DNA from: Nocardia sp. NBC_00403
GTDB taxonomy: Bacteria; Actinomycetota; Actinomycetes; Mycobacteriales; Mycobacteriaceae
Length of the DNA stretch: 64,000 bases
Direction: 5' to 3'
Assembly (NCBI RefSeq): GCF_036046055.1
Contig: NZ_CP107939.1
Span: 5,270,001-5,334,000, forward strand
The translations under genes were made by a program, and so were the position numbers. Every line of letters begins with the position of its first letter. Positions within the stretch are counted from its first letter, which is position 1. The notes beneath the pieces were generated by a model. The model did not search any database. It had not been told where the DNA came from and worked only from the letters and a program-made list of their open reading frames with translations. Of the stretch, positions 14,177 through 40,673 are shown piece by piece.

Positions 14177-15209
14177 CGCGGATGTTGTTGTTGTCGAAGG
14201 ATAATTCGTACTCGATCGGAGTGGAGTAGCCCAGGGCGGAGTGGCGCCGCTGGCGGTTGTGGAAGATCTCGATGTAGTCGAAGATCGCGTTGGCGAGCTC
14301 GATTCGGGTCTTCCATTTCTTGCGGTTGAGTAGCTCGATCTGCATCGAGGACCAGAAGCTTTCCATCATCGCGTTATCGAGTCCGTCGCCGACGGTGCCG
14401 AACGAGGGCAGCAGACCCGCGGAGCGGATCTTCTCGCCGAAGACCCAGGACGTGAATTGGGTGCCGTGGTCAGCATGCACGACCCCACCGGGAGCGGGAT
14501 GGCGATTACGGATAGCCATGTCCAAGGCGTTGACCACCAAGGTCGCGTCCTGCTTGGAATCGATCGACCAGCCCACGATCCGACGGCTGAACGCGTCGAG
14601 AACCGCAGCGCAGTAGACCCAGCCTTCTCGCGTCCTGTGTTGCGTTATGTCAGTGACCCACAACTCATTTGGCGCCAGCCGGTGGAACTTGCGGTTAACC
14701 AGATCATCGGCAGTCGCGACGCCGCGCAGGCGTTTGACCCGCGTCGGCCCGGGCAGCCCGTAGATGCCGGCTTGGGTCATCAGAACCGACACCGTTCGCG
14801 AGCAGACCTGCACGCTCATACCGAGGGTGAGTTCGGCATGGATTCTGCGGTACCCGTAAGTGCCCCGGGAGGCGACGTGGACCTCACGGATCAGCCCGGT
14901 CAGCCACTGGCGCCGCAGCTGGGTGGGTGTGGTCGGGGTGCGTTTGTGCTTGTAGTAGTTCTGGCGAGTAATTCCGAGGATTCGGCAGCATCGGTCCACT
15001 GGGGCCCCGGCGTCGACGAGAGCGTCGATCACCGGGTAGACCCTTTTGGGCGGGGCTTGTCCTCGCCGAGGAATTTCGTTGCTTGGCGGATGATCGCCAA
15101 CTCGCTTTCCAGTTCGGAGATCCGTCGCCGCGCCGCCCGTAACTGCACCGACTCGGTAGAGGAGGTACCGGGTCGCAGTCCGCGGTCGATCTCGTCTTGA
15201 CGGACCCAT
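14166..15209 (-). CDS. IS3-family transposase OrfB (DDE catalytic part)
   Basis: The rve-type catalytic half of the transposase. The DDE triad is seen in NELWVTDITQHRT (first D), GGVVHADHGTQFTS (second D) and LDNAMMESFWSSMQIELL (E). An HTH_21 region, YPVIDALVDAGAPVDRCCRI, lies near the true start of the homologous part. The first 45-50 codons of the open frame are the antisense-free overlap with orfA and are probably not translated alone. The functional product is the frameshift fusion with OrfA. The frame is intact to its stop inside the left inverted repeat. Confidence 0.92.
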   Translation of the reverse strand: MGPSRRDRPRTATRYLLYRVGAVTGGAATDLRTGKRVGDHPPSNEIPRRGQAPPKRVYPVIDALVDAGAPVDRCCRILGITRQNYYKHKRTPTTPTQLRRQWLTGLIREVHVASRGTYGYRRIHAELTLGMSVQVCSRTVSVLMTQAGIYGLPGPTRVKRLRGVATADDLVNRKFHRLAPNELWVTDITQHRTREGWVYCAAVLDAFSRRIVGWSIDSKQDATLVVNALDMAIRNRHPAPGGVVHADHGTQFTSWVFGEKIRSAGLLPSFGTVGDGLDNAMMESFWSSMQIELLNRKKWKTRIELANAIFDYIEIFHNRQRRHSALGYSTPIEYELSFDNNNIRAVS

Positions 15210-16232: not shown

Positions 16233-19200
16233 ATGAGTCCGAATCCAGCCGCGCCTGCAGACCGAGATCCGGATCTGATTCCGCTTTCGAGGGCGCAATA
16301 CGGAATGTGGCTCGCGAACAATCTTCCCGGCGGCCCGAACGTCAATATCGCGCACTACGTCGAGATCGAGGGGCTTATAGACTACGACGCGTTCACCAAA
16401 GCGGTGAACGACGCCGGCCACGAGACCGAGTCTCTTGTTGTCCGGGTGGTCGAATCCGGCGGTCACCCGTATCAATTCGTCGACCGCAGCATCGTCTACG
16501 ACGAACCGTTGCTGGATCTCAGCGCCGAAGACGATCCGTACGCAGCGGCGATGGAATGGATGCGCCGTGACTACAACACCAAGGCTATCGATCTGGCCCG
16601 GGACCGGCTCGCCGCGACGCGGCTCATCCAGCTCGGCGAAGACCGGTATCTGTGGTACGCGCGCGCCCATCATCTGATGACCGATGGCTACGGCGCGTTC
16701 AACATCCTGAACCGAGTGGCCGAGCACTACAACGCGCTGCTCGAGGGCCGGCCGCTGGCCCGACTGGTGGCGGCCCGGCTGGCGGACATCATCGCGGCGG
16801 AGCGCGAATATCGCATGAGCCGCCGGTTCGACACCGACAAGGCGTACTGGCTCAACAAGGTGGCCGATCTGCCGTCGACGACGAGTCTGTCCGGTCGCAC
16901 CGCCAAGTGGAGCGAAGTCGACCGCTTCGCCGGTCGGCCGCTGCCGTCGCGGTTGACCGCCATGCTCGACCGTTTCGCCGACGACCTGCACGCGTCGGCC
17001 GCGCAGGTAGTGGTGGCCGCGTTCGCCGCGTTTCTCGCCCGCATGACCGACACCGACGACGTCGCCTTGTCGCTGCCGGTGACCGGACGGGTGACGATGC
17101 GCTTGCGGAACGCCGCCGCGATGTTGGCGAACATGGTGCCGATCCGATTCGCCGTGGACGCGACGACCACCGTGGAAGGGCTGATTCGCGCATCGGTGTC
17201 CGAGCTCGTCCTGGCGATGCGGCACCAGCTCTACCGGTTCGAGGATCTGCGCCGCGATTCCAACGCGTTGGACGCGGCAGCGACCTCGTTCGGTCCGATC
17301 GTCAATATCTTGTTCTTCGATTCCGAGATTCGGCTCGGATCGGCGATCGGCCGCTACCGCGCACTGACGTCCGGGGCTCTGGACGACTTGCAGCTCAATA
17401 TGTACCGCTCCGGGGCCGACGCGCCGCTGCTCATCGAATTGCACGGCAACGCCAACCTGTACAGCCAGGACGAACTCGACGTGCACACCAGTCGATTCGT
17501 CGACTTTCTGCATCGCATGATCGACTCGCCCATCGACACTTGCCTGGTTGACATCCCGCTCGTCGATCCCGCCGAGGAACGGCGCATGCTCGGCGAACTC
17601 GCCGGCCGCGACGGCGCGGCGACCTCTGCGACGCTGATCGATCTGCTGACGCGACAGGCCGCGGCCACCCCGTCCGCGCCCGCTGTCACGTCGGGTACGA
17701 CCGCCCTCACCTACCGTGAGCTCGACGAGCGCTCGAACCGGTTCGCCCGCAAGCTCATCGCCCTCGGTGCGGGGCCGGATTCGCTGGTGGCCATCGCGAT
17801 GCCACGCGATGCCGATCTGATCATCGTCGCGCTGGCGGTGCTGAAGTCGGGTGCCGGGTATCTGCCGCTGGATCTCGCGCACCCGATCGATCGACTCGAC
17901 TACGTGCTGAACGACGCCGATCCGATCGCTGTGGTGACAAACCGGAGCATGCGCTATCAGGTGCCCGGGGATGCCGGCGCCGTGGTGCTCTTCGACGACG
18001 ACCCAGGTGTGGAAACCGATCGTCCGATCACCGATGCGGATCGCACCCGCCCGCTGCGCTTCGACAACGTCGCCTACGTCATCTACACCTCCGGATCGAC
18101 GGGACGGCCGAAAGGCGTGCCGATCACCCATCGCGCGGTCGCCACCTACCTGACGAACGCGTGTACCGAAATCGGAGTCCGCGCCGGCGACGTGTGGACG
18201 TTGTTCCATTCGTTCACGTTCGACTATTCGGTCTGGGAGATCTTCGGTGCGCTGGTAACCGGCGGCCGGGTGGTCGTGGTGGACAGCCCTGCGACGCGTT
18301 CGCCGGATGACGTCGTGCGCCTGGTGGCGCGTGAGAAGGTGAGCGTATTCAGCCAAACACCCTCGGCATTCCATCAATTCGCGACCGCGCGACAGCGATA
18401 TGTCGACGCCGGGGAGCCCGACGGCGAGCTTTCGGTGCGACTGGTCGTTCTTTCGGGCGAGGCTCTCGATCCGGCGGGTTTGTCGGACTGGTACGAGCAC
18501 AATCCGAACCTGCCCGTGCTGGCCAACAGCTACGGCATCACCGAAACCACCGTCTTCGTCACCTATCTCCGGTTGACCCCCGACATCGCCGTGCCGGGCG
18601 CACCGAGCACGATCGGTCCACCGCTGCCGGGCTTGCGCGTGTACACCCTCGACGAACGATTGCGCCCGGTGCCGCTGGGAGCTTGGGGTCAGATCTACGT
18701 CGCGGGAACGCAACTCGCCCGCGGCTACCTCGGCCGCCCTGGGTTGACCGCGGGACGCTTCGTCGCCGACCCGTTCGGCGGGCCGGGCGATCGCCTCTAT
18801 CGCAGCGGCGACGTCGCTCGCCGAAATAGTAAGGGCGAGTTGGAATATCGCGGACGCGCCGACCAGCAGGTGCAGCTACGCGGGTTCCGGATCGAGCTGG
18901 ACGAGGTCCGCAGTGCGCTACTGAGCCACAGCATGGTCTCGACGGCGGTCGTCATCGTGCACCTGCCGGGCACGGAAGCGGCCCGGCTGGTCGCCTACGT
19001 CGTGCCCGCTGCCGACGCGGTCTGCGAGCCCGAGGTGTTGCGCGCGCATGTCGGGTCGATGCTGCCGGAATACATGGTCCCGGCACACATTGTCGTTCTG
19101 CAGGCGTTGCCGCTGACCGTCAACGGCAAAGTCGACTATCGGGCGCTGCCCGAGCCTGCCTTCGGTTCGGCCGCGCCGTACGTAGCGCCGAGCACCGTCG

Positions 19201-19412
19201 TCGAGGAGGCCATCGCCGACGTCTTCGCCGAGGTCCTGGGCACTGCGCAGGTGGGTGTGCTGGATAGCTTCTTCGACCTGGGCGGCAATTCGCTGACCGC
19301 CACCAGCGCTTCCGTGCGGATCGCCGAGCTGACCCGGTGCGAGGTATCGGTGCTCGACGTGTTCGGCAAGCCGACCGTCGCCCAGCTCGCCGCCCATATC
19401 GAAGCCGGTCAG
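16233..19412 (+). other. NRPS module 1: starter C - A1 - PCP1
   Basis: The C domain (about residues 12-450) opens with LIPLSRAQYGMWLANNLPGG and keeps HHLMTDGYG at 146-154. Its overall pattern, including late LDDLQLNMY, follows the EntF condensation domain rather than the internal LCL domains, indicating loading of an acyl or aryl group. A1 (about 465-970) belongs to the QTPSAF / YGITETT clade seen in Thr-type domains. The eye-derived ten-residue signature is DYWSVSSVFK, close to but not equal to Thr codes. The carrier is LGGNSL (S1020). Confidence 0.8.
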
Positions 19413-22400
19413 CAATCCAGCCGCCCTGCCCTGCGGGCGCAGCCACGCGTCGAGCCCATTCTGTTGGCGCCCGCACAGAACCGGATCTGGCTGATCAATC
19501 AGGTCGACCCGGGGTCGGCGGCGTACAACATACCGCTGGTGCTGCAGCTGACCGGACACCTCGACGCCACGGCGCTGCGCTCGGCGCTGACCGACGTGAT
19601 CGAACGGCACGAATCTCTGCGAACCGTTTATCCCGCCGTGAATGGCCAAGGGACGCAGGTGATCCTGTCGGCCGAGCAAGTCGCTGCTGATCTCGATTCG
19701 ACCCCACAGCCCACCCGCCCCGATGATCTCGACAACCGGATCCGCGAGCTGGCTTCGACCGGGACCGACGTGCGCCGACGTCCGCCGATCCGGATCGCAC
19801 TGCTGGCGTCCACCGACCAGCGGCGGCACGTCTTGGTCGTCGTTCTGCACCACATCTGCTGCGACGGATCGTCGCTGCCGCCGCTCGCGGCCGATTTCGC
19901 AGCGGCCTACCGAGCGAGGTCGCAGGGACACGGCCCGGACTGGCGACCACTGACCGTGCAGTACGCCGACTACAGCATCTGGCATCGCAGTGTGCTCGGC
20001 GACGAAAACGATCCGGACTCGCTCGCGGCGCGCCAATTGCGTTACTGGACAGCTCAATTGGCGGGGATGACTCGGCTGCTGGATCTCCCCGTCGATCGTC
20101 GGCGGGCGACTCGCCAGTCCATGCTCGCCGACATCGTCGACACCGTGCTCCCCGCCGAGACCTGCGCCGGGATCGAGCGGGTGGCGCGCACGGCGAACGT
20201 GACGACCTTCATGGTCGTTCATGCCGCGTTGGCCGTGCTGCTCGCCCGGCTGTCGGATTCGGCAGACATCACCATCGGGACGCCGGTCGCGGGCCGCGGC
20301 GAGCGTGCGTTGGAACCGCTGATCGGCATGTTCGTCAATACGGTGCCACTGCGCACCCAGGTGCACGGCGACGAATCGTTCACGGAGTTTCTGACGCGAG
20401 TCAAAGGCATCGATCTCGAAGCTTTCGCCCACAGCGACCTGCCGTACGAACGCGTCGTCGAAGCGGTCGATCCGATGCCGTCGCTGGCGCACGAACCGCT
20501 GTGTCAGGTGTACCTCGCCTTCGACAACATGAACCGCCCGAGCCTGGAACTGTCCGATCTCACCGCCGAGATCCTGGATCCTGGACCGCAACCGGCGAAG
20601 GTTGACATCATCGTCACTGTCGCCGAGATCGATAGGGCAGCAAGCGATCTCGCACTACGGATCAACTACGCGACCGACTTGTTCGATCGGGGGACGATCG
20701 AGGATTTTGCCGTGCGACTGAATCGGATCCTCGAGTCGGTCGTGTCGAATCCGCAGCAAAGAGTGGGTGCTGTCGATGTGCTGTCGAGGACCGAGCGAGC
20801 CGCGTTGGCGCCCGCGTCGGGCGGCTGTGGCGAGGCACCACGGGTGCTGGCGGAGTTGCTGACGGTCCGGGAGCCGGACGCCGTGGCGATCGTGTCGGGA
20901 GAACGCACGGTGTCGTACGGGGAGTTGGATGTCCGGTCGAATCAGCTCGCTCGGTTGCTGATCGAGTGGGGGACGGGCCCGGATGATCAGGTCGCGCTGG
21001 TGATGGCGCGGTCGGTGGAACTCGTGGTGGGGATGTGGGCGGCAGCGAAGGCGGGTGCGGCATTCGTCCCGGTGGATCCGCGGAATCCGGCCGAGCGAGT
21101 CGCGCTCATGGTCGCGGATGTTCGGGTGGTGTTGACGGTGGAAGCAGCCCAGGGCCTGCTCCCGTCCGCGGTCGCGCGGTTGATTCTCGATGATCCGGGC
21201 ACCGAGGTCTGCATCGCGGCGCGATCCCGTGCCGGCGTGACGGACGCGGATCGGATCCGCGCCTGCCGTGCCTCGAACACGGCGTACGTGGTGTACACCT
21301 CGGGGTCGACGGGCGAGCCGAAGGGCGTCACTGTGACGCACGAGGGCTTGGCGAATTTCGCCGCCGAACAACGTGAACGCTATCGGATCGACAGTTCCGC
21401 GCGGGTGTTGCAGGTGGCGGCTCCGGGCTTCGATGCGGTGGTCCTGGAGTTGCTGATGGCGCACCCGAACGGTGCGGCCTTGGTGGTGTCGCCGCCGGAT
21501 GTCTTCGCCGGGGATCGCTTGGCGGAATTGATTCGCACGCAACAGGTTTCGCATGCATTCCTCACGCCCAGCGTGCTGGCGACGATGTCGCCCGCCGAGG
21601 TGGATTCATTACAGGCATTGGTCGCCGGTGGGGAGGCGGTGTCGGCGGAAACGGCCGCGGTGTGGAGTCCGGGCCGTCGGTTGTTCAACGGATACGGGCC
21701 GACCGAGACCACGATCATGGTCGCGATCAGTGACCCGCTGTGCTTCGGTGCCCGCGTCACGATCGGTGGACCGATCCGCGGTGTCGAGGCTCTGGTAATG
21801 GACGCGAATCTGCAGCCGGTACCGGTAGGGGTGACCGGACAGCTGTACATCTCCGGGATCCATCTCGCCCGCGGATACCTGGACCGACCCGCGGACACCG
21901 CGTCGGCTTTCGTGGCCAATCCGTTCGGTGTGACGGGGGCACGTATGTACCGCACCGGCGACCTGGCCCGCTGGACACCCGGGCGCACCCTCGAATACGT
22001 CGGGCGCACCGACTTCCAGGTGAAGATCCGCGGCCAGCGTATCGAACTCGGCGAAATCGACGCCGTCCTCGCCGGGCATCCAGCGGTGGCGGTCGCGGTG
22101 ACGGTCAGCGTTGCGACGCAGAGCGGGCCGAGGCTTGCCGCCTATGTCATGCCGGCGACGGATGCCATCGACGTCGCGGAGCTGACGGCCTACGCCGCAC
22201 AACGCCTGCCGTTGCACATGGTTCCGGGCGCAATGACGGTGCTCGACGCGCTACCACTGACATCGGTGGGCAAGATCGACCGTGCCGCATTGCCGGCACC
22301 GGTGTTCGCCACCGAGACCACCGAGTTCGTCGCGCCACGCGACGCGGCCGAGCAGATCGTCGCCGACGTGTGCGGTGCTGTGCTGGGCATCGATCGCGTC

Positions 22401-25400
22401 GGCGTCCTCGACAACTTCTTCGATCTCGGCGGCAACTCGCTGTCGGCGACGCGGGTGGCCGCGCGGCTGAGCGCCGTGTTCGGTGTCGATATTCCGCTGC
22501 ACACCATGTTCGACGCGCCGACCATCGCGGCATTCGCCGACGATCTGCGGGCCATGGACGCACCCGGGCGGGAACCGCTGATTCCGCAGGAACGCCCGGC
22601 GCGCATCCCGCTGTCGCCCGCCCAGGCCCGCATGTGGTTTCTCAATCAGTTCGACACGGGCTCGGCGCTGTACAACATCGCCCTGGTCGTGGGCATGTCG
22701 GGCCCCTTCGACGTGGCCGCCATGCGCGCGACGATCGCCGACGTGCTCGACCGGCACGAAGCTCTCCGGACCGTTCACCCGGACAGCGACAGCGGACCGC
22801 ACCAGCTGATCGTGTCGGTGCAGGCGGCACTACCCCTGCTGGAGCCGGTTGAGGTGGCGGCGGCAGACGTCGAGGCGCGCATCGCTGCGGCGGCCGCGGC
22901 CGGATTCGACGTCACCCGTGAGGTTCCGTTCCGAATCACGTTGCTGCGCTCTGCATCCGATCAACACACCCTGGTTCTTATCGTCCATCACATCAGCTTC
23001 GACGGATCCTCGCTCGCGCCGCTGGCCGCGGACCTGATGACCGCCTACAACGCCCGCATCCGGCACCAGGCACCGCCGTGGTCGCCGTTGCCGGTGCAGT
23101 ATGCGGATTACGCTCTGTGGCAACGGAAATGGCTCGGTGCCGAGGACGACCCGAACTGCCCGGCCACCTCCCAGATCGAGTATTGGCGGGCTTCACTGGC
23201 CGATCTGCCCGAAGTACTCGACCTGCCCACCGATCGTCCGCGCCCGGCGCGGCAATCGTTCCGTGGTGCGACGGTGTCGGCGACACTGCCCGCCGACCTC
23301 GGTCGTGACCTGGTCGCCCTGGCCCGCCGCCACGACGTGACGGTCTTTATGGTGCTGCACGCGGCGTATGCCGCACTGCTGGCCCGGCTTTCGGGAACCG
23401 GTGACATCGCTGTCGGCACGCCCATCGCCGGTCGCGGCGAACCGGGACTCGAGCGCCTGGTCGGAATGTTCGTCAACACGCTGGTGCTGCGGACGCGCAT
23501 CGAACCCGGCGCGTCTTTCCGCCAGATCCTGGAGCAGGTCCGGGCTACCGATCTGGCCGCCTTCGACCATGCCGACATCCCGTTCGAGCGCCTGGTCGAA
23601 GTGCTGAATCCACCACGCACGACGGCATACGCGCCGTTGACGCAGGTAGGTTTCTCGTTCCACAACATCGAGATTCCCACGGTACAGTTCGAGGGACTGA
23701 CGGTGTCGGCTCGGATCGCCGATCCGAGCGTGGCCAAATACGATCTGCATCTGAATCTCGTCGACACCGCAGAGCACGACGGTGAACCCGGCGCGATGGC
23801 AGTCGAATTCAGTTATGCCACAGATCTTTTCGACGAGGCGACGATCCTTTCGATGGTCGACCGATTTGTGCTGCTGCTGCGGACGATAGTCGCCGATCCC
23901 GCCCGCGCGGTCGGTGACATCGAGCTGCTGACCGCGCACGAGGCGCGCGAGCTGGCCGCGCGCGAAACCGGGGGGACGACGCCGCCGTCGTCTGCGACGA
24001 TCGCGGACCTGTTCGCCGCGCAGGCCGTGGCGACGCCGGACAGCACGGCCGTGCTCGACTCCGAAGGCGGCGCGCGACTGAGCTACCGAGAGTTCGCGGC
24101 GCGGGTGAATTCGCTGGCGCATGCGTTGATCGGGCGCGGAGTTGGCCCGGAAACCGTTGTGGCCGTGGCGATGCATCGCTCCGTCGACCTGCTGACCACG
24201 CTGTATGCGATCCACGCGGCTGGCGGGGCCTACCTGCCCCTGGATCCGGAGCACCCGCTCGATCGCGTGCGCGCCGTGCTCGCCGCCGCGCGGCCGCGGG
24301 CGGTGCTCACCCGTCCGTTCGACGAAGCGAATCTGCCCGACGACGTCCCGGTATGGGCGTTCGCGGAACTCGACGCCGAGTACAGGGATGGGTCGCCGGT
24401 GACGGATGCCGATCGACTCGAGCCGCTGCATCCCGAGAACCTGGCGTATGTCATCTATACCTCCGGCTCGACCGGGGTACCGAAGGGTGTGGCGGTACCG
24501 CACGCGGCGGTGGTCAATCAACTCCGCTGGATGCGCGAGCACTACCGACTCGGCGACGACGTCATGCTGTTGCGGACTCCGGTCACCTTCGACCTGTCGG
24601 TCTGGGAGTTGTTCTGTCCCCTGTCATGTGGTGCACAGTTGGTTGTCGCGGGCCCCGACGGGAGCGGCGACCCGGATGCGGTGGCCCGGTTGATAGCCGA
24701 CCATCACGTGACGACAGCGGATTTCGTGCCGTCGTTGCTCTCGGTGTTCCATGCGACGGCCGACGGACGCCAGTTCCCAGACCTGCGGCGCGTGCTGTGC
24801 ATCGGCGAGGCGCTGCCGGCCGAAACCGTTCGCCGTTTCCGCGATCTCAGCGACGCGCGCATCGACAACCTGTACGGGCCGACGGAGGCCGCCGTCAGCG
24901 TCACCGCGTATCGCATCGACGGAATCGACGGCGGCGCCGTGCCGATCGGGGTTCCCGAGCCGAATGTCATCGTGCATGTGCTGGATTCGCGACTGCACTC
25001 CGTTCCGGTGGGGGTGACCGGTGAGTTGTATCTGGGCGGCATCCAGCTGGCCCGCGGATACCACCAACGTCCCGATCTGACGGCGGCGACGTTCGTCGCT
25101 GACCCGCTCGACGGCGCGCACGGATCTCGCCTGTACCGCACCGGCGACCTTGTTCGCTGGGATAAGGGCGGCGCCCTGCGCTATGTCGGCCGCGCCGACG
25201 ATCAGGTGAAGATTCGCGGGCTGCGGATCGAATTGGGCGACATCGAGGCAGCGCTGCTCGCGCACGAACAGGTGACCGCGGCCGTTGCGCGGGTGCATTC
25301 CGGCCGCGACGAGCAACGCTTGGTCGCCTACGTGGTCACCCCAGAGGCAGTGGACACCAAGCAGATTCGACGACTCTTGCTGGAGCGACTGCCGGCCTAT

Positions 25401-28400
25401 ATGGTGCCGTCCGCGATCGTCCGGATCGACGCCGTCCCGCTCACGGCGAACGGCAAGGTCGACTACCGGGCATTGCCTGCTCCGGATCCGAGCGACCACG
25501 CGGAATACCGGGCGCCGCGAGGGCTCGTGGAGCAGGCCGTCGCCGAGGTTTTCGCCGAGCTGCTCGGCGTGCCGACGGTCGGCGCGGACGACGACTTCTT
25601 CGACCTGGGTGGGAATTCGCTCGTCGCCACGCGGGCGCTGAGCCGGATCGGCGCCATGGTCGACGCGACCGTACCGGTGCGAATGATGTTCGAGGCGCCC
25701 ACCGTCGCCGAGTTGGCCGAGCGCATCGCACAGCTGCGGGGGGTGCCCGGTCTGCCCGCACCGACGCCGAAACCGAGACCGGACCGTCTGCCGTTGTCGA
25801 CGGCGCAGGCCCGCATGTGGTTCCTCAACCAGTTCGATCCGGCTTCGCCGGGATACATTGTGCCGCTGGCGATTCAGCTCGACGGAGTGCTCGATGTCGA
25901 TGCGCTCACGGCGGCCGTCGGGGATGTCGTCGAGCGGCACGAGAGCTTGCGCACCGTGTACCCGGCGGTCGACGGCACGCCCACTCAGGTGGTGCTGGAC
26001 GCGGCCGATGTCGTCGCGGGCTGGGACCTCAGCCCGCAGCGGATCGATGAGCGCAAGCTGGCACGTCGGCTGGCCGCGTTCTCGAACACCGGATTCGATG
26101 TGTCGAAGGGCGTGCCGGTGCGGGTCGCGCTGTACCAGCTGCCGGACACGGCCTGGGTGGTCGTGGTGGCCGTGCACCACATCAGTTGCGACGGTTATTC
26201 GGTGGCGCCGCTGGCCGCCGATATCGTGACGGCCTATCGGGCGCGGGCCGGCGGAAACCTGCCGGGCTGGGCGCCGCTCACCATCCAATTCGCCGATTAC
26301 GCCCTGTGGCAGCGCGAGGTGCTCGGCTCGCCGGACGACCCGGATTCGCCCGTGTCCCGCGATGTCGCTTACTGGCGAACCCGACTCGCGGACATACCCG
26401 AACTGCTCGAACTGCCTACCGATCGACCGCGCCCGGTGGAGCAGACCCACCGCGGCGCGGTGATCCACGTCGAGATTCCGGCGGACCTGCAGAGCCGGGT
26501 GGACTCCCTGGCCAAGCGATCCCGGGCGACGACGTTCATGGTGGTGCACACGGTACTCGCGGTGCTGCTGTCACGGCTGTCCGGCAGCGACGACATCACC
26601 ATCGGCGTGCCACACGCGGGTCGCGGCCACCGGGCGCTCGACCACCTCGTCGGGATGTTCGTCAACACCTTGGTCCTGCGCACCCGCGTCACGCTCGATC
26701 AGACCTTCACCAGTCTGCTGGATGCGGTGCGGCACAGCGACATCGAGGCTTTCGATCATGCCACCGTGCCGTTCGAGCAGCTGGTGGAAACGCTGAATCC
26801 GGCACGGTCGACAGCGCACACGCCGTTGTTCCAAGTCATGCTCGCCTACCAGAACATGGTGCGGGCGCGCGTGGAACTTCCGGGTCTCACCGTCGAGACC
26901 ATCGACCCGGGCGACAGTGCCGCGATCTACGACCTGCTGCTCATGATGACGGAGGACCACGGACCGGACAACGAGCCGACCGGCATGACGCTGCGCCTGA
27001 CCTACGCCACCGACCTGTTCGACGCGAACTCCGCACAGCGTTTCGCCAACCGGTTCGTTCGCCTGCTCGACGGCGTCGCGACCGATGCCGACTTGCCGAT
27101 CAGTGAGCTCGATCTACTCGATGCCAGCGAGCGGCAGCTGGTGCTCAAGCGTTGGAACGACACCGGCGACCCCGTGTCAGTGGGCCGAACCCTGGTGGAC
27201 GCCTTCGATGAACAGGTGGAATGCAGCCCGGATGCTCCGGCGATTCGGCTTCCGGACGGCGATGCGCTGACCTACCGGGATTTCGCCGCCCGCGTCAATC
27301 GGCTGGCCAGGTGGCTCATATCGCGTGACGCGAGGTCGGAAACCGTTGTGGCCGTCGCTATTCAGCGATCGATCGACCTCGTGACGGCGCTGTATGCGGT
27401 GCTCGAGGCGGGTGCTGCGTTCCTGCCGATCGACCCGAATCAACCGAGCGAGCGAATCGCCGGCGTGCTGGGTGCGGCGCGACCGCTGATGGTGCTCACG
27501 ACATCAGCGGACGGCGACGGACTGCCCGAGGGATTCACCTCCGTTCGAGTCGATCGGCTGGATCTGGCCGGGCTGTCCGGTGCCCCGATCACCGACATGG
27601 AACGGTGTGCGCCGCTGCGGCCGGACAACGTGGCCTACGTCCTGTTCACCTCCGGCTCCACCGGCGTCCCCAAGGGGGTGGCCCTGACCCATGCCGCGAC
27701 GATGAGTCAGCTGGCGTGGGCACAGCAGCAGTGGCCGCACACCGCGGCCGACCCGGTGCTGTACAAGACTCCGATCACCTTCGACATCGCCGTGTGGGAG
27801 TTGTTCTGGCCGCTGCAAATCGGCGCGCACATCGTGGTGGCCGAACCCGACGGGCACCGCGACCCGGTCTACTTGGCGGACTTCATCGCGAGCCGAAACG
27901 TCAGCACCGTGCATTTCGTCCCGTCGATGCTCGATGTTCTCCTCGAAGCCGTCGGTGATACCGAATTGCCCTCTGTCCGGCGGATATTCGTCGCCGGTGA
28001 GGCGCTGGCACAGCACACCGTCGACGCCGCGGTGCGCGTGTTCACCGAGGCAGAGGTGGTGAACTGGTACGGCCCGGCCGAGGCCGAGGTGGTCACCGCC
28101 GCGCGCTGCCTGCCAGGTGCGACGACCCCTGTGACGGTCCCGATCGGCGCGCCCGTTTCCGGCATGCGGGTCTACGTGCTCGACAAGCGACTGCAACCGG
28201 TGCCAGTCGGTGTTGTCGGCGATCTGTATGTCTCGGGTGTGCAGTTGGCGCGCGGTTATCACGGCCGCGCCGACCTGACGTGCACCGCCTTCCTCGCGCA
28301 TCCGTTCGGCGCGCCCGGGGAGCGGCTGTATCGCACCGGTGACCTGGTGCGGTGGACGATGGCTGGAGAGCTGGATTTTCTGGGCCGCAGCGATTTCCAG

Positions 28401-31400
28401 GTGAAGGTCCGCGGTCAGCGGGTGGAGCCGGGGGATATCGAAGCGGCGGCGTGCGCGATACCGGAGGTTGCTCGTGCTATTGCCGTCGCGACCTCGGAGC
28501 GAATCGTCGCCTACGTGACGCTCGCGCCAGGAGCGGTGACCGATGGTCGCGCGATTCGCGACCAGCTCGCTCGCACGCTGCCGTCGTATTTGGTTCCGGT
28601 CCGCGTCGAGGTACTCGAGGAGATGCCGCTCACCCCGAACGGCAAGCTCGACCGAGCCGCGTTGCCGCAGCCGACGTTCGACGACGGTGAGGAGTTCGTG
28701 CCGGCGCGCACCGAACGCGAAGCGGCGCTGGCCGATATCGTCGCCACAATCACGGGCAGCGACCGGGTGAGCGTGCGGGCGAACCTGTTCGAGATCGGTG
28801 TCGACTCGCTCTCGGCTGCCCGGATCGCCGCGCGGGCCGAGGCGGCGCTCGGTGTCCAGGTCGGTATCCGCGATATCTTCGAGGAGCCGACGATCGCCGG
28901 ATTGGCGGCACGCTTGGCGCAGCGCACGCAGTCGTCGCTGATACCGCTCGCGCCGCGGCCGCGCCCTGCGACGATCCCGCTTGCGGCGGCGCAACGACGG
29001 TTGTGGTTCATCAACCAGTTCGATACCGCGTCGGCGGCCTACAATATCGTTTTCGCGACCCGGTTGAACGGCGCGCTGGACGTCGATGCGTTGCGTGCGG
29101 CCTTCGAGGATGTGGTGGCCCGGCACGAGCCACTGCGGACGGTGTATCCCACGGTCGGCGGCGAACCCTGTCAGGTCGTGCGGGATGTGGCGACAGTAGT
29201 CGATGGCCTGGCACTGGATGCGGAGCCGGTCGCCGAGGAGATCGTGCTGGGCGAGCGGATCCGGCAGACCGTCGAGACGGGCTTCGACGTCTCGGCAGCG
29301 GTGCCCGTGCGGGTGCGGCTGTATCGCACCGGCCCTGACGAGCACATCCTGGTGCTGGTCGTCCATCACATCGCCGCCGACGGCTCGTCGATGGCGCCGC
29401 TGGCTCGCGACGTGTTCGCCGCCTATCGCGCGCGAGTGAAAGACCAAGCGCCGCAATGGAAACCGCTGCAAGTCCAGTACGGCGACTATGCGCTGTGGCA
29501 GCGGGAGATGCTCGGCGCCGAGGACGATCCGCCGTCGGTGATCGCGCGGCAGATCGGGTACTGGACCGAAGTTCTCGCTGACGCCCCAGAGCTGCTCGAC
29601 CTACCGACCGATCGGCCTCGGCCTGCGACCATGTCGATGGTCGGCGGCAGTGTTCGCTTCGGCATACCGCAGCGGCTACACGACGCGGTCGTGCGGCTGG
29701 CCCGTCGAGAGGGCGTGACCGTATTCGTCGTGCTGCATTCCGCACTGGCAATCGTCTTGGCGCGCACCGCGCACACCGGCGACGTGTCGGTCGGCACGCC
29801 CGTAGCGGGTCGCGGCATCCCGGCGCTGGACGATCTCGTCGGCATGTTCGTCAACACCGTGGTGCTGCGCACGCTGGTGCGCGACGACAGGTCCTTCCGG
29901 CACCTTGTCGGGCAGGTGCGCGGTGTCGACTTCGAGGCGCTCGCGCACGCGGATCTGCCCTATGAGCGACTGGTCGATCTGCTCGACCGGCCCCGGTCGA
30001 CGGCGTATACACCGCTCTATCAGGTGTTGTTCGGGTTGCAGAACACCCCGGCGGCCAGGTTCCAGCTGCTGGATGTCGATGTCGAACTGCTCGATCCCGG
30101 TATCGCCCAGGCCAAGACCGACCTCACGGTGTTGCTGACCGAACGCCTCGACGGTGATCGACCTGCCGGAATCGATGGCGAAATTGTCTATGCCACAGAT
30201 ATTTTCGTCGAATCAACCGCGGAATCGCTGGCCGAGCGATTCATCCGCGTCCTCGATGCAGTGGTCTGCGATCCGACGCGGCCGGTGGGCGACATCCCGC
30301 TGATCGGCAGCGGGGAGGCCGAACGGCTGCTCCCGGCGCGCGGCAGCGCCGCCCCCGCGCCGCGTCTGCTTCCCGATCTGCTGGCCTCGGCCGTGGCAAC
30401 CACCCCCTCGGCGATCGCCCTGATCGACGGCACCCGGACCCTTACCTACATCGAACTCGACCACCGCGCCAATCAGATTGCGGCGCAATTGCTTTCCTGG
30501 GGCGCAGGGCCGGGAACCTGCGCTGCGCTGGCCGTGCCACGATCGGCCGATTATCACGTCGCCATGTGGGCGATCACGAAGACCGGCGCCACCTTCGTGC
30601 CGGTGGACCTCCGCTATCCGCCGGAGCGGATCGCCTACCTGCTGCGCGACTCCGGTGCCCAAGTCGGCATCACGGTCGCGGCCGCCCGCACATCCCTGCC
30701 GGACGGCGTCCGCTGGCTGGTGCTCGACGACCCGCGCACGGCCGCCGACATTGCCGCCCGTCCCGGCCACGCGGTATCGGACGCGAATCGCCAACGCGCA
30801 CTGCGGATTCAGGATGCGGCATATGTGATCTACACGTCGGGTTCGACAGGGACGCCAAAGGGCGTGGTGGTTACCCACGAGGGGCTGGCGGCCTTCGCGG
30901 CCGAGCAGCGCGAGCGCTATCGGGTGGAGGGCACGGCGCGCGTACTGCAAGCTGCGGCACCCGCCTTCGACGCGGTCCTGCTGGAAGCGTTGATGGCGCA
31001 CGCCGCCGGCGCGGCGCTGGTGGTCTCGCCGCCGGAAGTACTCGGCGGCGCAGACCTGGTCGCGCTGATCCGAACGCATCAGGTGACACATGCGTTCCTG
31101 ACACCAAGTGTGCTGGCGACGATGTCCCCCGCCGAGGTGGATTCGATGCGGATGCTGGCGGTCGGCGGCGAAAAGGCGGCGGGGGATCTGATTGCCGCCT
31201 GGGCGGCCGGGCGGCGATTGCACCACATCTACGGTCCGACCGAGACGACGATCGTGATCACGATCAGCGACCCTGTGTGCCCAGGCGAGGTGCTCACCAT
31301 CGGCGGACCGATCCGCGGTGCGGAGGCGGTGGTGCTGGACGCGCGGCTGCGGCCGGTGCCGATCGGAGTAGCGGGTGAGCTGCACTTCTCGGGGGCCGCG

Positions 31401-34400
31401 CTGGCGCGCGGTTACCTGAATCGCCCTGCGACAACGGCAAGTTCGTTCGTGGCGAACCCCTATGGTGCGCCGGGCTCACGGATGTACCGCACCGGCGACA
31501 TCGTCCGCTGGACCACGCAGGGCACGCTGCAATACATCGGGCGCCTCGATTTCCAGATCAAGATTCGGGGCCAGCGTGTCGAGCTGGGCGAGATCGATGT
31601 CGCGCTGCTCACGCATCCGGCGGTCGCCAGTGCGGTCACCGTGAGTCGTACGGGGCCCGGCGGGCAACCTGTGCTCGCCGCGTACATCACGGCCGAACCC
31701 GCAGCAGTCGCCGATCCGAGCGCGGTACTCGATCACGTGGCGGCCGCCTTGCCCGCCCACATGGTGCCGGCGACGATCACAGTGCTCGACCACTTGCCGC
31801 TCACCTCGACGGGCAAGGTGGATCGAGAAGCGTTGCCGGAGCCCGTCTTCGAGACCACCGAGGACGGTGCCGCCGCGGCATCGACCGAACTGGAACGCGC
31901 CATCGCCGCCGCCTTCGCGGATGTCCTGGGCGTCGCGACGGTGGGCGCGACAACCTCCTTCTTCACGCTCGGTGGCGATTCGATCATGTCGATCCAGTTG
32001 GCCTCGCGACTGAAGTCCGCGGGCATCGGCGTGACGGCTCGAGACATCTTCGAGCGCAAGACAGTTCGCGGACTGGCGCGGGTGGCGCAGGCCGCTGAGC
32101 GGGCGTCGCTCGACGAGCTGCCCGGCGGTGGTGTGGGCGAGATTGCGTTCACGCCGATCGTGTCCTGGTTCGTCGAGCGACTCGGGGCACCGGCTCGGTT
32201 CGCGCAGTCGATGCTGGTGCGCTTGCCGCGTGACGCGCGCGTCGAGGACGTGCTCTCGACCGTGCGGGCGATCGTCGAACACCACGATGTGCTGCGCTCG
32301 CGGCTCGATGCCCAAGGCTGGGAGGTGCTGCCACCGAGCGCTGCCGATACCGCCTGTTCGGTCTCCGTCCGGACCTTCGGTGCCGGTGAGGCTCCGGGGA
32401 GCGCCGGTTTCACCGCCGTGGTGGAGGCGGCGGCCACCGCGGCGTTCGACCGGCTCGACCCGGCGGCGGGCAGGATGGCGCACGTCGTGTGCCTGCTGCC
32501 CGAAGAAGGCGTCGACGCGGAGGCTCGTGCCCTCATCGTGATCCATCACCTGGCAGTCGATGCGGTGTCGTGGCGGATTCTGCTGCCCGACTTCGTGACT
32601 GCGTGGCAGCAGATCACCGAGGGGCGGCGGGTCGAGTTGACCGCGTCGGGCACCTCTATGCGTCGGTGGTCGGCTGCGTCGATCGCCGCCGCGGCAGCGC
32701 GCGCCGGCGAATTCGAGCTGTGGCATCGGATCTGTTCGGCACCCGATCCGTTGCTCGGACGTGCGGATTTGGATCCCGAGCTGGACACGCAGTCGACCGT
32801 GCGTCAGCTGACCGTGTCGCTCCCGGCCGACGTGACCTCCGCGTTGCTCGACGAGGTGCCCGAAGCCGTGCGCGGCAGCGTCGACGATGCGCTGCTGGCC
32901 GCTCTCACCGTGGCCCTGACTCGCTGGCGGCATCGTCGCGGCATTGCGTATGCGGGCATGAATGTCCTACTGGAGGGGCACGGTCGCGAGGAGCAGATCG
33001 CCGAGGGCGCAGACGTCTCCCGAACCGTTGGCTGGTTCACCACTCGATATCCGGCGGCGCTCGACCTGAGTGGTGTCGATCTCACTGATATGCGCGCGGC
33101 GGTGAAATCCGTCAAAGACCAGCTCCGCGACATCCCGGACAAAGGAATCGGTTACGGCCTGCTGCGCTATCTGAATACCGAGACGGCCGAGCGACTCGCG
33201 GTACTGCCGGAGCCGCAGATCAGTGTCAACAATCTCGGGCGAATCGGCGTCGATCTCGCGACATTGTCGGATCTGCCGTGGGTTCCGACCGACGAACCTT
33301 TCGACCGACGGGCCGCATTCGATCCGGATATGCCGGCGGCGGCGGTCCTCACGATCGACGTGAACATCGTCGACGCGGCGGCCGGACCTCAGCTGTCGGC
33401 GTACGTCGGCTACGCCTCGCGGTTGCTCGACCACGACGATGTGGCCGAACTTGTCGCAGAATGGGTCGATGCCCTGACCGCCATCGCGGCCGTCGCGAAC
33501 GAGGACTGGGGACTGACTCGGGCCGACGTTCCGCTCGTCGACGTCACCCAGCGCGATCTGGACGAGTTCGCCGACCGGTACGGGCGATTGCGCGACGTGT
33601 GGCCGTTGGCGCCGCTGCAGGCGGGGCTGCTGTTCCACGCCGAGGTCGCCGCGGGCCATCTCGACGTCTATATCGCGCAATCGGTACTCACATTGTCGGG
33701 CGCGGTCGACGACCACCGCCTCGAGCGCGCCGCGCGGGCCTTGCTCACACGCCATCGCAACCTGCGGGCCGCCTTCACCCGAACCGCCGAAGGCCTTCCG
33801 GTACAAGTGATTCCGGTCGATACCGCCGTCCCGTGGCGCAACATCACGCTGTCCGAGCGCACACTGGACCTGGACGAAATATTCGATGCCGAGCGGGCGG
33901 CCGGGTTCGATCCGGCTGATCCGCCGCTGCTGCGGTTCGTGCTCGTCACGGTGGGACCGCAAGACTTCCGGCTGATATTGACCGCCCATCACCTTCTGCT
34001 CGACGGCTGGTCGCTGCCGCTGCTGTGGCGTGAACTGATCGGCTTGTACGCGGTGGACGCACAGTCGTACCTGTTGCCCGATGTGGTGCCCTACCGCGAT
34101 TACCTGGAATGGCTGGCCCGGCGCGACCGTACCGGAAGCGTCGAGGTGTGGCGGGACGCGCTGCGCGGTGTCGCCGAGCCCACGCTGGTCGCAGATCCGC
34201 ACACCGATACGACCGCGACCATCCCGATCGATCTGCCGGTCGTTCTCGATCGCGACGCGACGGCCGAGTTGGTGGAATTCGCCCGGACACACGCGGTGAC
34301 GATGGCGACGATCGTCCAGTTCGCCTGGGCTGTGGTATTGGGCAACCTGCTCGGCGCCGACCGTGTGGTCTTCGGCAGCACGGTGTCCGGCCGTCCCGCA

Positions 34401-37400
34401 GACGTGCCTGGGGTCGAGTCGATGATCGGTCTGTTCATCAATACGATTCCGGTCGTCGTCGAGGTGCGCCGGGACCGGAGCATCGAGGACGCGCTGACTC
34501 GATTGCAGGCCGACAACACGCGTCTGCTCGACCACCACTACCTCGAACTGTCGCAGATCTTGGCAGCCGCGGACGCCGTGTCCCTGTTCGACACGCTGTT
34601 CGTGTTCGAGTCCTACCCGGTCGACAGCAGCGGATTGGGTGACGCCAACATAGGTGGCATGCGGGTGGTCTCGGCGGGAGGTCGCGACGCCGCGCATTAC
34701 CCGATCACCGTGCAGGTGCACCACACCGACCAACTGCACGTCCGCCTGCGCTACCAGCAGGACCGCATCGACGACGAGACAGCGTCCGGTCTCGCCGCCC
34801 GGCTCGACATCGTGCTGCGTGCGATCACGACTGATCCGCACGCGCCGCTCGATTCGGTCGATCTGCTGTCCGCGGCCGATCGGCGTGAACTGGTGCCGGC
34901 CACGGGTGGCGGTGCCGTGTCGCCGCAGCTGCTGACGGAGTTGCTGGTCGGGGGCGTGCACGTGAATCCCGTTGCAGCAGCGCTGCTTTCGGGTTGTAGC
35001 CCGATGTCCTACGCCGAGTTGGATGCCCGGTCGAACCAGCTGGCGCGGCAATTGATCGAGCGCGGTATCGGCCCCGGCGATCAAGTCGCGCTGGTGATGG
35101 CGCGGTCGGCGGAGTTCGTGCTCGGCCTGTGGGCGACGGCGAAGACGGGTGCGGCATTCCTGCCGATCGATCCGCGCAATCCGGCCGAGCGCGTGGCACA
35201 CATGATCGCGGACTCCGGTGTGCGGGTCGCGCTCACCGTCGAGGCATCGCGGGATCTGCTTCTCGACGTGATGTGCCCGCTGGTCCTCGACGATCCGGAC
35301 ACCGAGACCGCTGTCGCGGCGAAGTCTGCGGCCGCTGTCACCGACTCCGAGCGGCTGCGGACGCCACAGCTCCAGGATGCGGCGTACGTGATCTACACCT
35401 CGGGGTCGACCGGAATCCCGAAGGGCGTCGTGGTCACCCACGAGGGGCTGGCGAATTTCGCCGCAGTAGTGCGTGACCGCTTCGGCGTGGACACCGGTTC
35501 GCGCGTGCTGCAGGCGGCTGGCCCCGGTTTCGATGCGATGGTCCTCGAAGTACTGCTGGCCCACACGAACGGCGCATTGCTGGTGGTGGCGGCACCGGAC
35601 GCGTTCGCCGGCGATGAGCTGGCGGAATTGATTCGGGCGCAACGGGTATCGCATGCATTCATCACCCCGAGCGTGCTGGCCACCATGGCACCGGCCGGTA
35701 TGGATTCGTTGCGAGTGCTGACCGCCGGCGGCGAGGCGGTGACACCGGAGCTGGTCTCGGTGTGGGCGCCGGGCAGGCGGCTGCTGAACGGGTACGGACC
35801 GACCGAAACCACGATTCTGGCCGGGATCAGCGGTTCGCTACACCCGGGCGATGTGGTGACGATCGGCGGACCGATCCGCGGCGTCGAGGCCGTCGTGCTC
35901 GATCCGTGGTTGCGGCCGGTGCCGGTCGGGGTGATGGGGGAGTTGTATCTCGCGGGCATCCAGCTGGCACGCGGGTATGTGAACCGGTCTGCGGCCACCG
36001 CGGGTGCCTTCGTGGCGAATCCCTTCGGCGCGGCAGGGTCGCGCATGTACCGGACCGGCGATCTGGCCCGCTGGACCTCGAACCACGCCGTGGAGTACCT
36101 CGGCCGCCGCGATTTCCAGGTCAAGATTCGCGGTCAACGCATCGAACTCGGCGAGATCGAGGCGGTGCTGTCCGAGTATCCCGGGGTCGACCACGCGGTG
36201 GTCGTGTTGCGCACAGACGAGCGCGGCACCGACCAGCTCGTCGGCTATCTGGTCGGCGACGGACGTATCGATCCGAGCGACATCAAGGCTGCTGCCCGAC
36301 GTCATCTGCCCACGCACATGGTGCCCGACGTGCTGATGCCGCTTGCCGAGTTCCCGCTGACCGCGACCGGCAAGCTGGATCGGGCGGCACTACCCACGCC
36401 GGAATTCCCGGACGAGCGGGAATGGGTCGCCCCGAGTTCCGACGCCGAACAGCGCATCGCGGACGTTTTCGGCGACGTCTTGGGTGTCAGCGGAGTGGGC
36501 GCAGCGGACAGCTTCTTCGAACTCGGCGGCAATTCGCTGTCGGCGACGCGCGTGGTCGCGCGATTGCGCACGGCACTCGGCGTGAGCGTCGGTATTCGGG
36601 AGCTGTTCGATGCACCGACAGTCGCCGAACTGGCCGCGCATCTCACTACCGCCGACCGGAACGTCGCCGTGCCGCCTGCACCGCGCACCCGCCCAGCTCT
36701 GGTACCGCTGTCACCAGCGCAGCAGCGGATGTGGTTCCTCAATCAATTCGACACCTCGGTCGGCGCGTACAATATTCCGCTGGTGATCCGGCTGCGGGGC
36801 GAGCTCGATATCGATGCGCTGCGGCACGCGTGCGAGCTGGTCATCGACCGGCACGAGTCGCTGCGAACCAAGTTCCCGATGATCAACGGGACGCCCTGCC
36901 AGGTCACGGTCGGCGCCGACGAGGTCGCACCGGCTCTGACGCCGATCCGGGTCGACGAACAACATGTGCTGGAGCGGGCGGCGGCGGTGGTCTCCGCGGG
37001 CTTCGATGTAACCCAAGCACCTCCGGTGCGAGCCGAATTGTTCGCCATCGGAGACCGTGATCACGTGCTGGTGATCTGCGTGCATCACATCTGCGCCGAC
37101 GGACAGTCGATGATGCCGCTCGCGCGGGACGTGGCAATGGCCTACCAGGCGAGTAGAGAAGGGACACAACCGAACTGGCCGCCCCTTCCGATCCAGTACG
37201 CCGACTACGCCCTGTGGCAGCGCGAGGTGCTCGGCGACGGACACGAGCCGGACTCGCTCGTCTCCCGGCAGCTGCGATTCTGGACCGACAGCCTCACCGG
37301 GCTGCCCGAACTGCTCGAGCTGACGACCGACCTGCCCCGGCCGCCGGTGGCGTCCATGCGCGGCCGCGCGGTCGATTTCGAGCTGTCCGCCGAGCTGCAC

Positions 37401-40400
37401 GCCCGCATCGACGCCCTCGCCCGCGAGGCCAACGCGACGGTGTTCATGGTCCTGCACGCCGCCTTGACCGTGCTGCTATCCAGGCTGGCCGACGTCGACG
37501 ATGTCGCGATCGGCACCCCGGTGGCCGGCCGCGGCGACCGCGAACTCGACGATCTGATCGGCATGTTCGTCAACACGCTGGTGTTGCGGTCGCGGGTGTC
37601 GTCGCGGCAGCCGTTCGCTGACTTGCTCGCTGCCACCCGCGAAACGGATCTCGCCGCGTTCGCCCACGCCGATGTGCCCTTCGAGGAGGTCGTGGAGGCG
37701 CTGAATCCGCAGCGGTCAACCTCGCACATGCCGCTCTATCAGGTGACCCTCGACGTCCAGGATCTCAGCGCGGCCGCGTTGGAGCTGGCGGGGCTCACCG
37801 TCGAACCGATCGAGAACGGCTTCGACCAGGCCCGCGCGGACCTGAACGTCAAGCTCGTCGAACGGTTCGGTGCAGGGGGCCGTCCGGACGGAATGGTCGG
37901 ACGACTGACCTTCGCCACCGATCTGTACGTCGAGCAGACGATAACTCGGTTCGCGCACGCGTATACCCGGATACTGGAGCAGGCGGCCGTGAATCCGGCT
38001 GTCGCCGTGGGCGATATCGATATAGTGGATCCCGACCAGCGACGCGAGGTGCTGGCCGCTGCCGGAGTCGACGGCGTCGCGGTCGCGGATGTGACCCTGG
38101 CCGAGCTGTTCACCTCCCGCGTCGCGGCGCAGCCGGATGCGGTCGCGGTGACCGATGGTGTATCGCAGCTGACCTATGCGGAGCTGGATCGGCGCGCAAC
38201 CCAGCTCGCCGTTCGGCTCACCGAGCGCGGTGTCGGGCCGGAAACCCTGGTGGCAGTGGCGTTGTCGCGTTCAGTCGACATGGTCGTGGGCCTGCTCGCG
38301 GTCGTGCGCGCAGGCGCCGGATACCTGCCACTGGATATGGCGAACCCGCCGCAGCGATTGCGCTTCATCCTCGATGACGCGCGTCCGGCCGCGGTGTTGA
38401 CCTCTGCCGAAATGGCGATGGACGCAACGGGATACGCGGCACCGACGCTACTGATCGAAGAATCCGGGGCCGCGGTCCCGGACTGCTCTGGCCCCGTGCC
38501 CTCGGCCGCGCGACCGGACAACCTCGCCTACGTGATCTACACCTCCGGGTCGACCGGCACCCCGAAGGGGGTGGCCGTCAGCCATCGCGAAGCCGTCACA
38601 TTGTTAACCCACGCCGCCGAACGATTCGACTTCCATTCCGATGACGCGTGGACGATGTTCCATTCGTACGCTTTCGATTTCGCGGTGTGGGAAATGTGGG
38701 GCGCCCTGCTGACCGGAGGCAGGCTGGTCGTCGTCGACTACAACACCTCCCGGTCGCCAGAGGCGTTGATGGAACTGGTGGCGCGCGAGCGCGTCACCGT
38801 GTTGAGCCAAACCCCTTCGGCCTTCTACGGATTCCTCGACGCCGAGCGCCGATATCGCGAATCCGGTTGCGGCTGCGGCGATCTCGTGCTCCGGTACATC
38901 GTCCTCGGCGGCGAGGCATTGGATCCGGCGAGGTTGACCGGCTGGTTCGCCGCGCATCAGCCCGGATCGCCGCAATTGGTCAACATGTACGGGATCACCG
39001 AGACGACCGTACACGTGACATTCGCCGAGGTCGATGACCCGAACACAGCCAGGATCGGAACACCGCTGCCGGGGCTGCGGGTGTACGTGCTCGACGACCG
39101 GCTGCAGCCGGTACCGATCGGAGTCCGCGGCGAGATCTATGTCGCCGGAGGGCAACTCGCGCGCGGTTACCTGCGAGCCCCGGCGTTGACGGCGAGCCGC
39201 TTCGTGGGGAACCCGTTCGATCCGAACGGTGGCCGGTTATATCGGACAGGCGATGTCGGCCGCTGGCGCAAGACCAGCAGCGGGCTGGAGTTGACCTACG
39301 CCGGCCGAAGCGACGCACAAGTTCAGTTGCGCGGGTACCGGATCGAGCTGGGCGAGGTGGAGTCGGCGCTGCTACGGCATCCGTCGGTGTCGCGGGCCGC
39401 CACGGCGGTGCACCGCCACGAGCGCGACGTCGATCAGCTGATCGGTTACGTCGTCGGCACCGACGGGCAGCCGATCGATCCGGGCCAGGTCCGGGCGGCC
39501 GCCGCTGAGGTGCTGACGAGCTACATGGTGCCCTCGGTGGTCATGGTCCTGCCCGATCTGCCGTTGACCATCAACGGAAAGCTGGATCGAAAAGCACTGC
39601 CCGCTCCCGATTTCGACGGAGCAGTACATCGGTTCGTCGCACCGCGGACGCATACCGAGAAAGTGATCAGCGATGTATACGGGCAGGTCTTGGGAACCCC
39701 CCGGGTCGGGGTGACCGACGGATTCTTCGACCTGGGGGGCAACTCACTGCTCGCCACCATGGCGGTAACAGAGTTGCGGACTCGTGGTGTGACGATCGAA
39801 TTGCCCTGGATGTTCGAGGATGCGACTCCGCAGGCGTTGGCGCGCAGGGCCGACGACTCCGAAGGCGACTCCGGCCTGAAGGTGCTGCTGGCGCTGCGCG
39901 CGAGCGGATCCGAGCCGGCGGTCTTCGCCGTGCACCCGGCGGGCGGTCTGGCGTGGTTCTACGGCGGCATCATCGAACATCTGCATCCGGATCGGCCGGT
40001 GTACGGGTTGCAGGATCCGCACGTCGTGTCCGGCGAACCATCTGCGGAGTCCGTCGACGAACTGGCCGCACGCTATGTGGCCGAGATTCGCCGAGTGCAG
40101 CCTACGGGTCCGTATCACCTGCTCGGCTGGTCGTTGGGCGGACAGATCGCGCACGCTATGGCAGCACAGCTGCAGCGCGACGGTGATCGGGTCGGCATCG
40201 TGGCCATGCTGGACAGCGCAGCAGGTGCACCATCGCAACCGGCCGCGTCCCTCGCAGGCCAGCCCGCACCGGGACAGCTGATGGCCGATCTGCTCGGCGG
40301 CTGGCGGGAGCTGTTCGACCTCGGCGACCAGCTGCAGGCAACCACCCATGAGCAAGCGTGGAACGTCATCCGGGACCAGGTGATCGCAACCGGACTGTTC

Positions 40401-40673: not shown

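Follow-up and report, generated by a model that had tools for sequence, protein, structure and literature searches.

Work on peptidolipins dates back to the 1960s, and the Nocardia compound peptidolipin NA is the lactone 3-hydroxyeicosanoyl-Thr-Val-D-Ala-Pro-D-aIle-Ala-Thr. Surfactin-type nonribosomal peptide synthetases (NRPSs) possess a starter condensation (C) domain, seven modules spread over three proteins, two epimerase (E) domains and release by a thioesterase (TE). The residues of peptidolipin NA sum to 963.66 by hand arithmetic, its published mass (PMC10920908), a Val6 analogue has been documented and N. arthritidis (strain IFM 10035) is a reported producer; the titles, abstracts and passages covered by our literature search presented no biosynthetic genes for peptidolipins. 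Also described in the genus is gene cluster family (GCF) 6, with NRPSs of 7 to 13 modules that are reported always to be accompanied by nitropropane dioxygenase, metallopeptidase, esterase, epimerase and dehydratase genes (PMC7413640). Here we analyzed a 64,000-nt stretch of Nocardia sp. NBC_00403 (NZ_CP107939.1:5,270,001-5,334,000, forward; the whole stretch is called the window), in which one very large NRPS gene is followed by a gene for an FkbM-family methyltransferase (FkbM; Table 1). We assign a probability of about 0.78 to the reading that the NRPS belongs to a Nocardia family of lipoheptapeptide synthetases and is both complete and maintained, and that its product carries a D residue at position 5 and is tailored by FkbM. 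Like the surfactin-type systems it combines a starter C domain, seven modules and TE release, whereas it is one protein rather than three, has one E domain rather than two, and has putative FkbM tailoring. Like GCF 6 it is a large conserved Nocardia NRPS, yet the gene set described for that family was not seen among the 30 window open reading frames (ORFs; part of the window's total) that we scanned against Pfam.

The NRPS frame is 24,441 nt long and encodes 8146 aa with no internal stop, and motif and Pfam scans gave the layout of seven condensation-adenylation-thiolation (C-A-T) modules in which module 5 is followed by an E domain and a TE ends the protein. Seven adenylation (A) cores reading TSGSTG were located at aa 619, 1689, 2743, 3806, 4868, 6389 and 7437, along with eight HHxxxD motifs (seven of C domains plus the E motif HHLAVDA at aa 5438, also found in several orthologues), a carrier serine motif in each of the seven T domains (IGVDSL in T4) and the TE nucleophile motif GWSLG at aa 7965, and the Pfam matches (Condensation, AMP-binding, PP-binding, AMP-binding_C, Thioesterase) were all far over cut-off. 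A lipoheptapeptide synthetase of the starter-C kind should hold seven complete C-A-T modules and one TE, and this protein does. The initial annotation, made from the sequence alone, had described a single seven-module protein of 8146 residues with carrier serines, HH motifs, A cores, one E and one TE intact, all of which we recovered; its proposal of an acyl-heptapeptide line on one protein also stands, as we infer N-acylation of the product because a starter C domain is present. The architecture itself is ordinary; of note are the conservation of the specificities, the variability at position 6 and the methyltransferase coupled to the NRPS.

Searching 150 Nocardia genomes with the last 446 NRPS residues (end of A7, T7 and TE) revealed orthologues at 65-100% identity in 63 of them, at 67 loci (two copies each in G083, G071, G076 and G126; the G054 match spans just 331 residues), with the next-best matches dropping to 45-47%. 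Outside Nocardia, the best match in a family-wide draw of 301 genomes reached 55% identity (G380). Most of the 67 loci have frames of 8.1-8.3 thousand codons, and the species with the enzyme include, by name, N. pneumoniae, N. takedensis, N. nova and N. vinacea, with protein records shorter than full length placing the enzyme in N. gipuzkoensis, N. barduliensis, N. africana and N. asteroides as well. In all 20 full-length orthologues that we fetched we counted seven A motifs, with a single E-type motif separating A5 from A6, and the A and C/E motifs came in the same order as in the window NRPS. For five orthologue pairs (62-92% identity) the ratio of nonsynonymous to synonymous substitution rates (dN/dS, NG86) was 0.24-0.30, and the gene is therefore maintained. 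These data confirm the NRPS as real, intact and conserved, with an architecture retained beyond chance. A 24-kb gene under purifying selection in 63 of 150 sampled genomes, with four of its seven codes near-frozen, suggests that the product serves a steady function, possibly as a surfactant or in the cell envelope. Neither this genus-wide spread nor the FkbM gene had featured in the initial annotation.

Stereochemistry was assessed from a tree of C and E domain pieces over 330 residues, drawn from the source genome and from one line each in four other genomes. C1 clusters with the N-terminal C domains of other lines, C2, C3, C4, C5 and C7 cluster with mid-chain domains, and C6 clusters with C domains that follow an E, being the sole window C domain in that clade. 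With E after module 5 and C6 alone in the after-E clade, we predict a single D residue, at position 5 only. C4 fell in the mid-chain LCL clade in both lines tested (the window and G113), which makes a D residue at position 3 less likely, and motif order revealed no E domain in module 3 in any of 21 lines (the window NRPS and the 20 fetched orthologues). Dual E/C domains, considered as an extra source of D residues, were rejected for lack of any sign of them, as C6 (after-E) and C1 (starter) were the only window C domains outside the mid-chain group.

Adenylation codes were read over the same 21 lines by alignment at nine positions, with columns anchored on A7 and the tenth position (Lys517) assumed. 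The codes of modules 2, 3, 4 and 7 are near-frozen (18-21 of 21 lines), those of modules 1 and 5 are moderately variable and that of module 6 is the most variable. A1 follows the pattern DYW[S/N][V/I]SSVFK (four codes), A2 reads DALFVGGIMK in 19 lines, A3 DLWDLILVSK in all 21, A4 DIWHFAWVVK in 18, A5 DALFAGIIVK in 13 (six codes altogether) and A7 DFWSVGMVHK in 19, and A6 takes 11 codes, matches the A2 code in 5 lines and, with a mean pairwise identity of 0.655, shows the lowest conservation among the measured domains. Within the set compared, the nearest relatives of A1 and A7 are Thr-coded domains, those of A2, A5 and A6 are mainly each other and domains with similar codes, those of A3 are a DVWDFILVSK-coded domain, the Rhodococcus domain described below and Ser-coded domains, and those of A4 are Ser-coded domains. 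Judging from these signatures, A3 and A4 may be small-residue pockets that have lost the serine contacts. We know of no code matching the A1 code DYWSVSSVFK, and the A5 code is aliphatic in kind and, to our knowledge, not among described Ile codes. A literature text search for six signature codes found DFWSVGMVH alone in print, and DFWSVGMVHK is listed among Thr-activating codes, also for modified Thr (PMC12283262). The residue identities apart from Thr7 are putative assignments from the codes. Both the D residue at position 5 and the Thr or analogue at position 7 that the initial annotation had expected are supported. In G023, module 4 (L131-L132) carries the Thr code DFWSVGMVHK in place of DIWHFAWVVK, probably through a domain swap.

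The ATG of the FkbM gene overlaps the NRPS stop codon (ATGCTGA), and its product matches PF05050 at 61.7 bits (cut-off 22.7) and TIGR01444 at 100.9 bits (cut-off 37.7). A structure predicted from 57 sequences shows a class I S-adenosylmethionine (SAM) fold with a predicted local distance difference test (pLDDT) score of 96 (58 for a 10-sequence model); a PDB sequence search gave no significant match to FkbM, and a fold search with the model left substrate classes inseparable. Across the Nocardia genomes searched, close FkbM copies occur only alongside the NRPS, and on this genomic evidence FkbM is coupled to the NRPS within Nocardia. A Fisher test of co-occurrence gave p ~1e-26, a value that assumes the NRPS in 62 of 148 genomes and ignores relatedness, and that we do not use as support. 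Copies away from the NRPS lie 5-7 kb downstream in G023 (L200) and G138 (L201), on other contigs in G028, G016, G105, G024 and G128, and, as a second copy, elsewhere in G130 (together L194-L199).

Domain order, C-domain grouping, codes, conservation and FkbM linkage are legible in the sequences, and from them a route to the product can be proposed. C1 would attach the fatty acyl chain to the first residue, modules 1-7 would extend the peptide in order, E5 would convert residue 5 to the D form, C6 (DCL) would accept it, TE would free the acyl-heptapeptide and FkbM would then add an O-methyl group. Release by ring closure as a lactone seems more likely than plain hydrolysis because positions 1 and 7 probably bear hydroxyl residues and the acyl chain may offer a hydroxyl as well. 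The predicted product is acyl-(Thr-like)-aliphatic-small-small-D-aliphatic-aliphatic-Thr, with a species-dependent position 6; it is probably O-methylated, and we infer both the methylation and its site. Several observations weigh against this reading. At the 20 fetched loci an intact adjacent FkbM gene was found 13 times, fragments twice and none five times, so that the pathway, some of whose loci have lost or never had a whole FkbM gene, does not depend on methylation. Embleya, Micromonospora and Actinoplanes also have FkbM relatives (53-56%), with a link to the NRPS shown within Nocardia only. In the search listing 12 orthologous frames are shorter, several because the contig ends there, and the frame of G070 is interrupted by a TAA. 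The C classes were set by domain position in NRPSs of the bacterial family, without characterized references, and the after-E clade also takes in a few domains with no E before them (own10 module 3, own4 first). Adjacent to the NRPS we saw no acyl-AMP ligase, acyl carrier protein, MbtH or product exporter, leaving supply and export unexplained.

The alternative that survives best, though we hold it to be doubtful, is that the NRPS is the peptidolipin synthetase itself, with A3 loading D-Ala directly and A4 acting as an atypical Pro-type domain. Seven modules, the Thr code at position 7 (DFWSVGMVHK in 19 of 21 lines), a Thr-lineage A1, an aliphatic A2 and an E domain only after module 5, as D-allo-Ile5 would require, are all compatible with peptidolipin NA; the most variable domain, A6, with the A2 code in 5 of 21 lines, matches the Ala6/Val6 variants, and A4 shares Ala301, Val330 and Val331 with the Pro code DVQLIAHVVK. 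The residue list also fits the published mass (PMC10920908), and the clade of the holders N. gipuzkoensis and N. barduliensis adjoins that of N. arthritidis (PMC7600791). As for orthologues in peptidolipin producers, the NRPS family includes a protein recorded under the name N. asteroides (P0127), a partial sequence of four modules with the same codes, whereas the type strain N. asteroides NBRC 15531 has only a 40% relative, P0138, among the matches listed (all <=7989 aa). Against the peptidolipin assignment, module 3 without E and a C4 grouping with LCL-type rather than DCL-type domains provide no source of D-Ala at position 3, and A4, with Ser-coded relatives, has Ile and Trp where Pro codes have Val236 and Gln239 (both present in 59 of 71 published Pro codes; PMC12283262), so that by signature, in a code comparison and not an assay, Pro at position 4 is not indicated. 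Peptidolipin NA is moreover unmethylated by mass, yet FkbM is usually present. With no D source at position 3, no Pro hallmark and an FkbM that would be unneeded, we therefore do not file the NRPS as a peptidolipin synthetase.

What the predicted lipoheptapeptide has in common with peptidolipin NA and its Val6 analogue is seven residues, a terminal Thr, a D-aliphatic residue 5, variation at position 6 and an origin in Nocardia, whereas the D residue at 3 and Pro at 4 of peptidolipin NA are not predicted here, and the FkbM methylation predicted here is not needed there. The initial annotation's suggestion of a peptidolipin pathway or relative stands in part, with positions 1, 2, 5, 6 and 7 compatible and positions 3 and 4 not, and the doubt then voiced over the single E and the A3/A4 signatures was well placed; a new congener is possible. 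The NRPS is nonetheless the best peptidolipin candidate among the lines examined, for that family or a sister product, and as a concrete candidate the locus makes an old assignment question directly testable. A rival line would combine Pro at position 4 with E domains in modules 3 and 5; of eight other TE-bearing NRPS loci fetched from the 150-genome search list, none fits. In the five of these with seven A domains, E follows module 4 (G117, G032) or each of modules 2, 4 and 5 (G132, G087, G066). A search with a Pro-like A domain of the source genome (own13, DVQFVSQVAK), weak in that it covered the best 11 candidates per genome, returned mostly two-module-sized proteins of ~2400 aa. A broader and rather speculative version would make the whole NRPS family peptidolipin synthetases, with A3 loading D-Ala without a module-3 E, and most holder species makers of O-methylated congeners that went unnoticed because the described peptidolipins come from lines without a working FkbM.

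Methyl-ester lipopeptides of mycobacteria, such as fortuitine, are the model for a further alternative that we judge unlikely, in which TE hydrolysis yields a linear acyl-heptapeptide and FkbM methylates its C-terminal carboxylate. In its favour, the FkbM gene comes straight after the NRPS gene and overlaps its stop, yet the two Thr-type residues offer hydroxyls, the FkbM enzymes known to us all methylate hydroxyls, and the fold search did not separate the substrate classes. A siderophore or other metal-binding peptide is very improbable, since although the genus makes NRPS siderophores (PMC7413640), we saw no hydroxamate- or catechol-like code and no Cy domain, and the scanned ORFs included neither an iron gene nor a transporter for siderophores.

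Table 1. Positions in the window of the NRPS, its domains and the methyltransferase gene.
Feature	Position	Strand	Basis
Seven-module NRPS, 8146 aa	16233..40673	+	motifs, Pfam, orthologues
C1, starter-type condensation domain, HHLMTDG	16233..17534	+	groups with N-terminal C domains
A1, DYWSVSSVFK, Thr-lineage; carrier Ser codon 19290	17637..19148	+	code alignment, A-domain comparison
A2, DALFVGGIMK, aliphatic lineage; carrier Ser codon ~22437	20847..22307 (3' bound approximate)	+	
A3, DLWDLILVSK; carrier Ser codon 25617	24009..25475	+	identical code 21/21
C4, mid-chain (LCL) clade	25746..27077	+	C/E tree
A4, DIWHFAWVVK, nearest Ser-coded, not Pro-like; carrier Ser codon 28806	27198..28664	+	
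A5, DALFAGIIVK, aliphatic lineage; carrier Ser codon ~31980	30384..31832 (3' bound approximate)	+	
E5 epimerase, HHLAVDA	32118..33482	+	C/E tree, motif
C6, after-E (DCL) clade	33591..34826	+	C/E tree
A6, DALFTGGILK; carrier Ser codon ~36534	34947..36392 (3' bound approximate)	+	
A7, Thr code DFWSVGMVHK; carrier Ser codon 39744	38091..39599	+	code, PMC12283262
TE domain, GWSLG	39921..40616	+	Pfam, motif
FkbM-family SAM methyltransferase, 262 aa	40667..41455	+	Pfam/TIGR matches, predicted fold

As had been noted from the sequence, neither MbtH, phosphopantetheinyl transferase nor exporter is adjacent to the NRPS among the scanned ORFs, so MbtH and carrier activation must come from elsewhere in the genome, where we found MbtH genes at G000:C1:1838606 and 79881 and two ACPS-family matches. 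The nearest transporter is a short-chain fatty acid transporter (9713-11380), and an AMP-binding protein lies ~15 kb from the NRPS (124-1554). Comparing orthologue flanks (~3 kb upstream, 2.5 kb downstream) revealed no conserved neighbours besides FkbM: 13 other window proteins were compared (E 1e-8), and not one had a match beside any of the 20 orthologues or downstream of the NRPS at four named loci, of which three carry FkbM. Promoter and terminator scans upstream of the NRPS found nothing exceeding shuffles, and Rfam (gathering thresholds) and tRNA scans gave no matches. An IS3-family transposase (14166-15209, minus strand) lies ~1 kb upstream of the NRPS, and the neighbouring minus-strand ORFs at 11944-12939 and 13065-14039 are 48% alike over 147 residues, the former diverging abruptly past ~140 residues, as with a broken frame.

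Beyond Nocardia, the Rhodococcus opacus/koreensis NRPS (P0171, P0172; G380, stretches L238-L239 in its opacus-group genome) resembles the window NRPS in its TE (55% identical), in a module-3 type code, DLWDMILVSK, with an E two modules later, and in the next code, DALFVGGIMK. It differs in having in-chain methyltransferase domains (Pfam; P0171 and P0172), placed by spacing after a DVFSVAAVYK A domain, and in a last A domain reading DVWSLALVHK, not Thr; its sequences are incomplete at the N side. In another genus of the family (g9), NRPSs of ~8,300 residues in G353, G292 and G235 (L234-L237, L240-L241) possess seven A domains, two E and one TE, with codes unlike those of the window NRPS. The source genome also encodes a two-module NRPS with the Pro-like code DVQFVSQVAK (G000:C1:3530001-3541000, L193), and of 148 Nocardia genomes 60 contain related A domains (E 1e-90 or better), for the most part within frames of ~2400 codons. 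Finally, the ends of the source contig cut one NRPS frame, which runs on the minus strand from ~46.7 kb down to 1 and then from 8,725,101 to ~8,715,318; joined, it measures 18,837 codons between stops, in which we located 16 A motifs but no TE motif, and because the frame joins up, the chromosome looks circular and the predicted protein extremely large.
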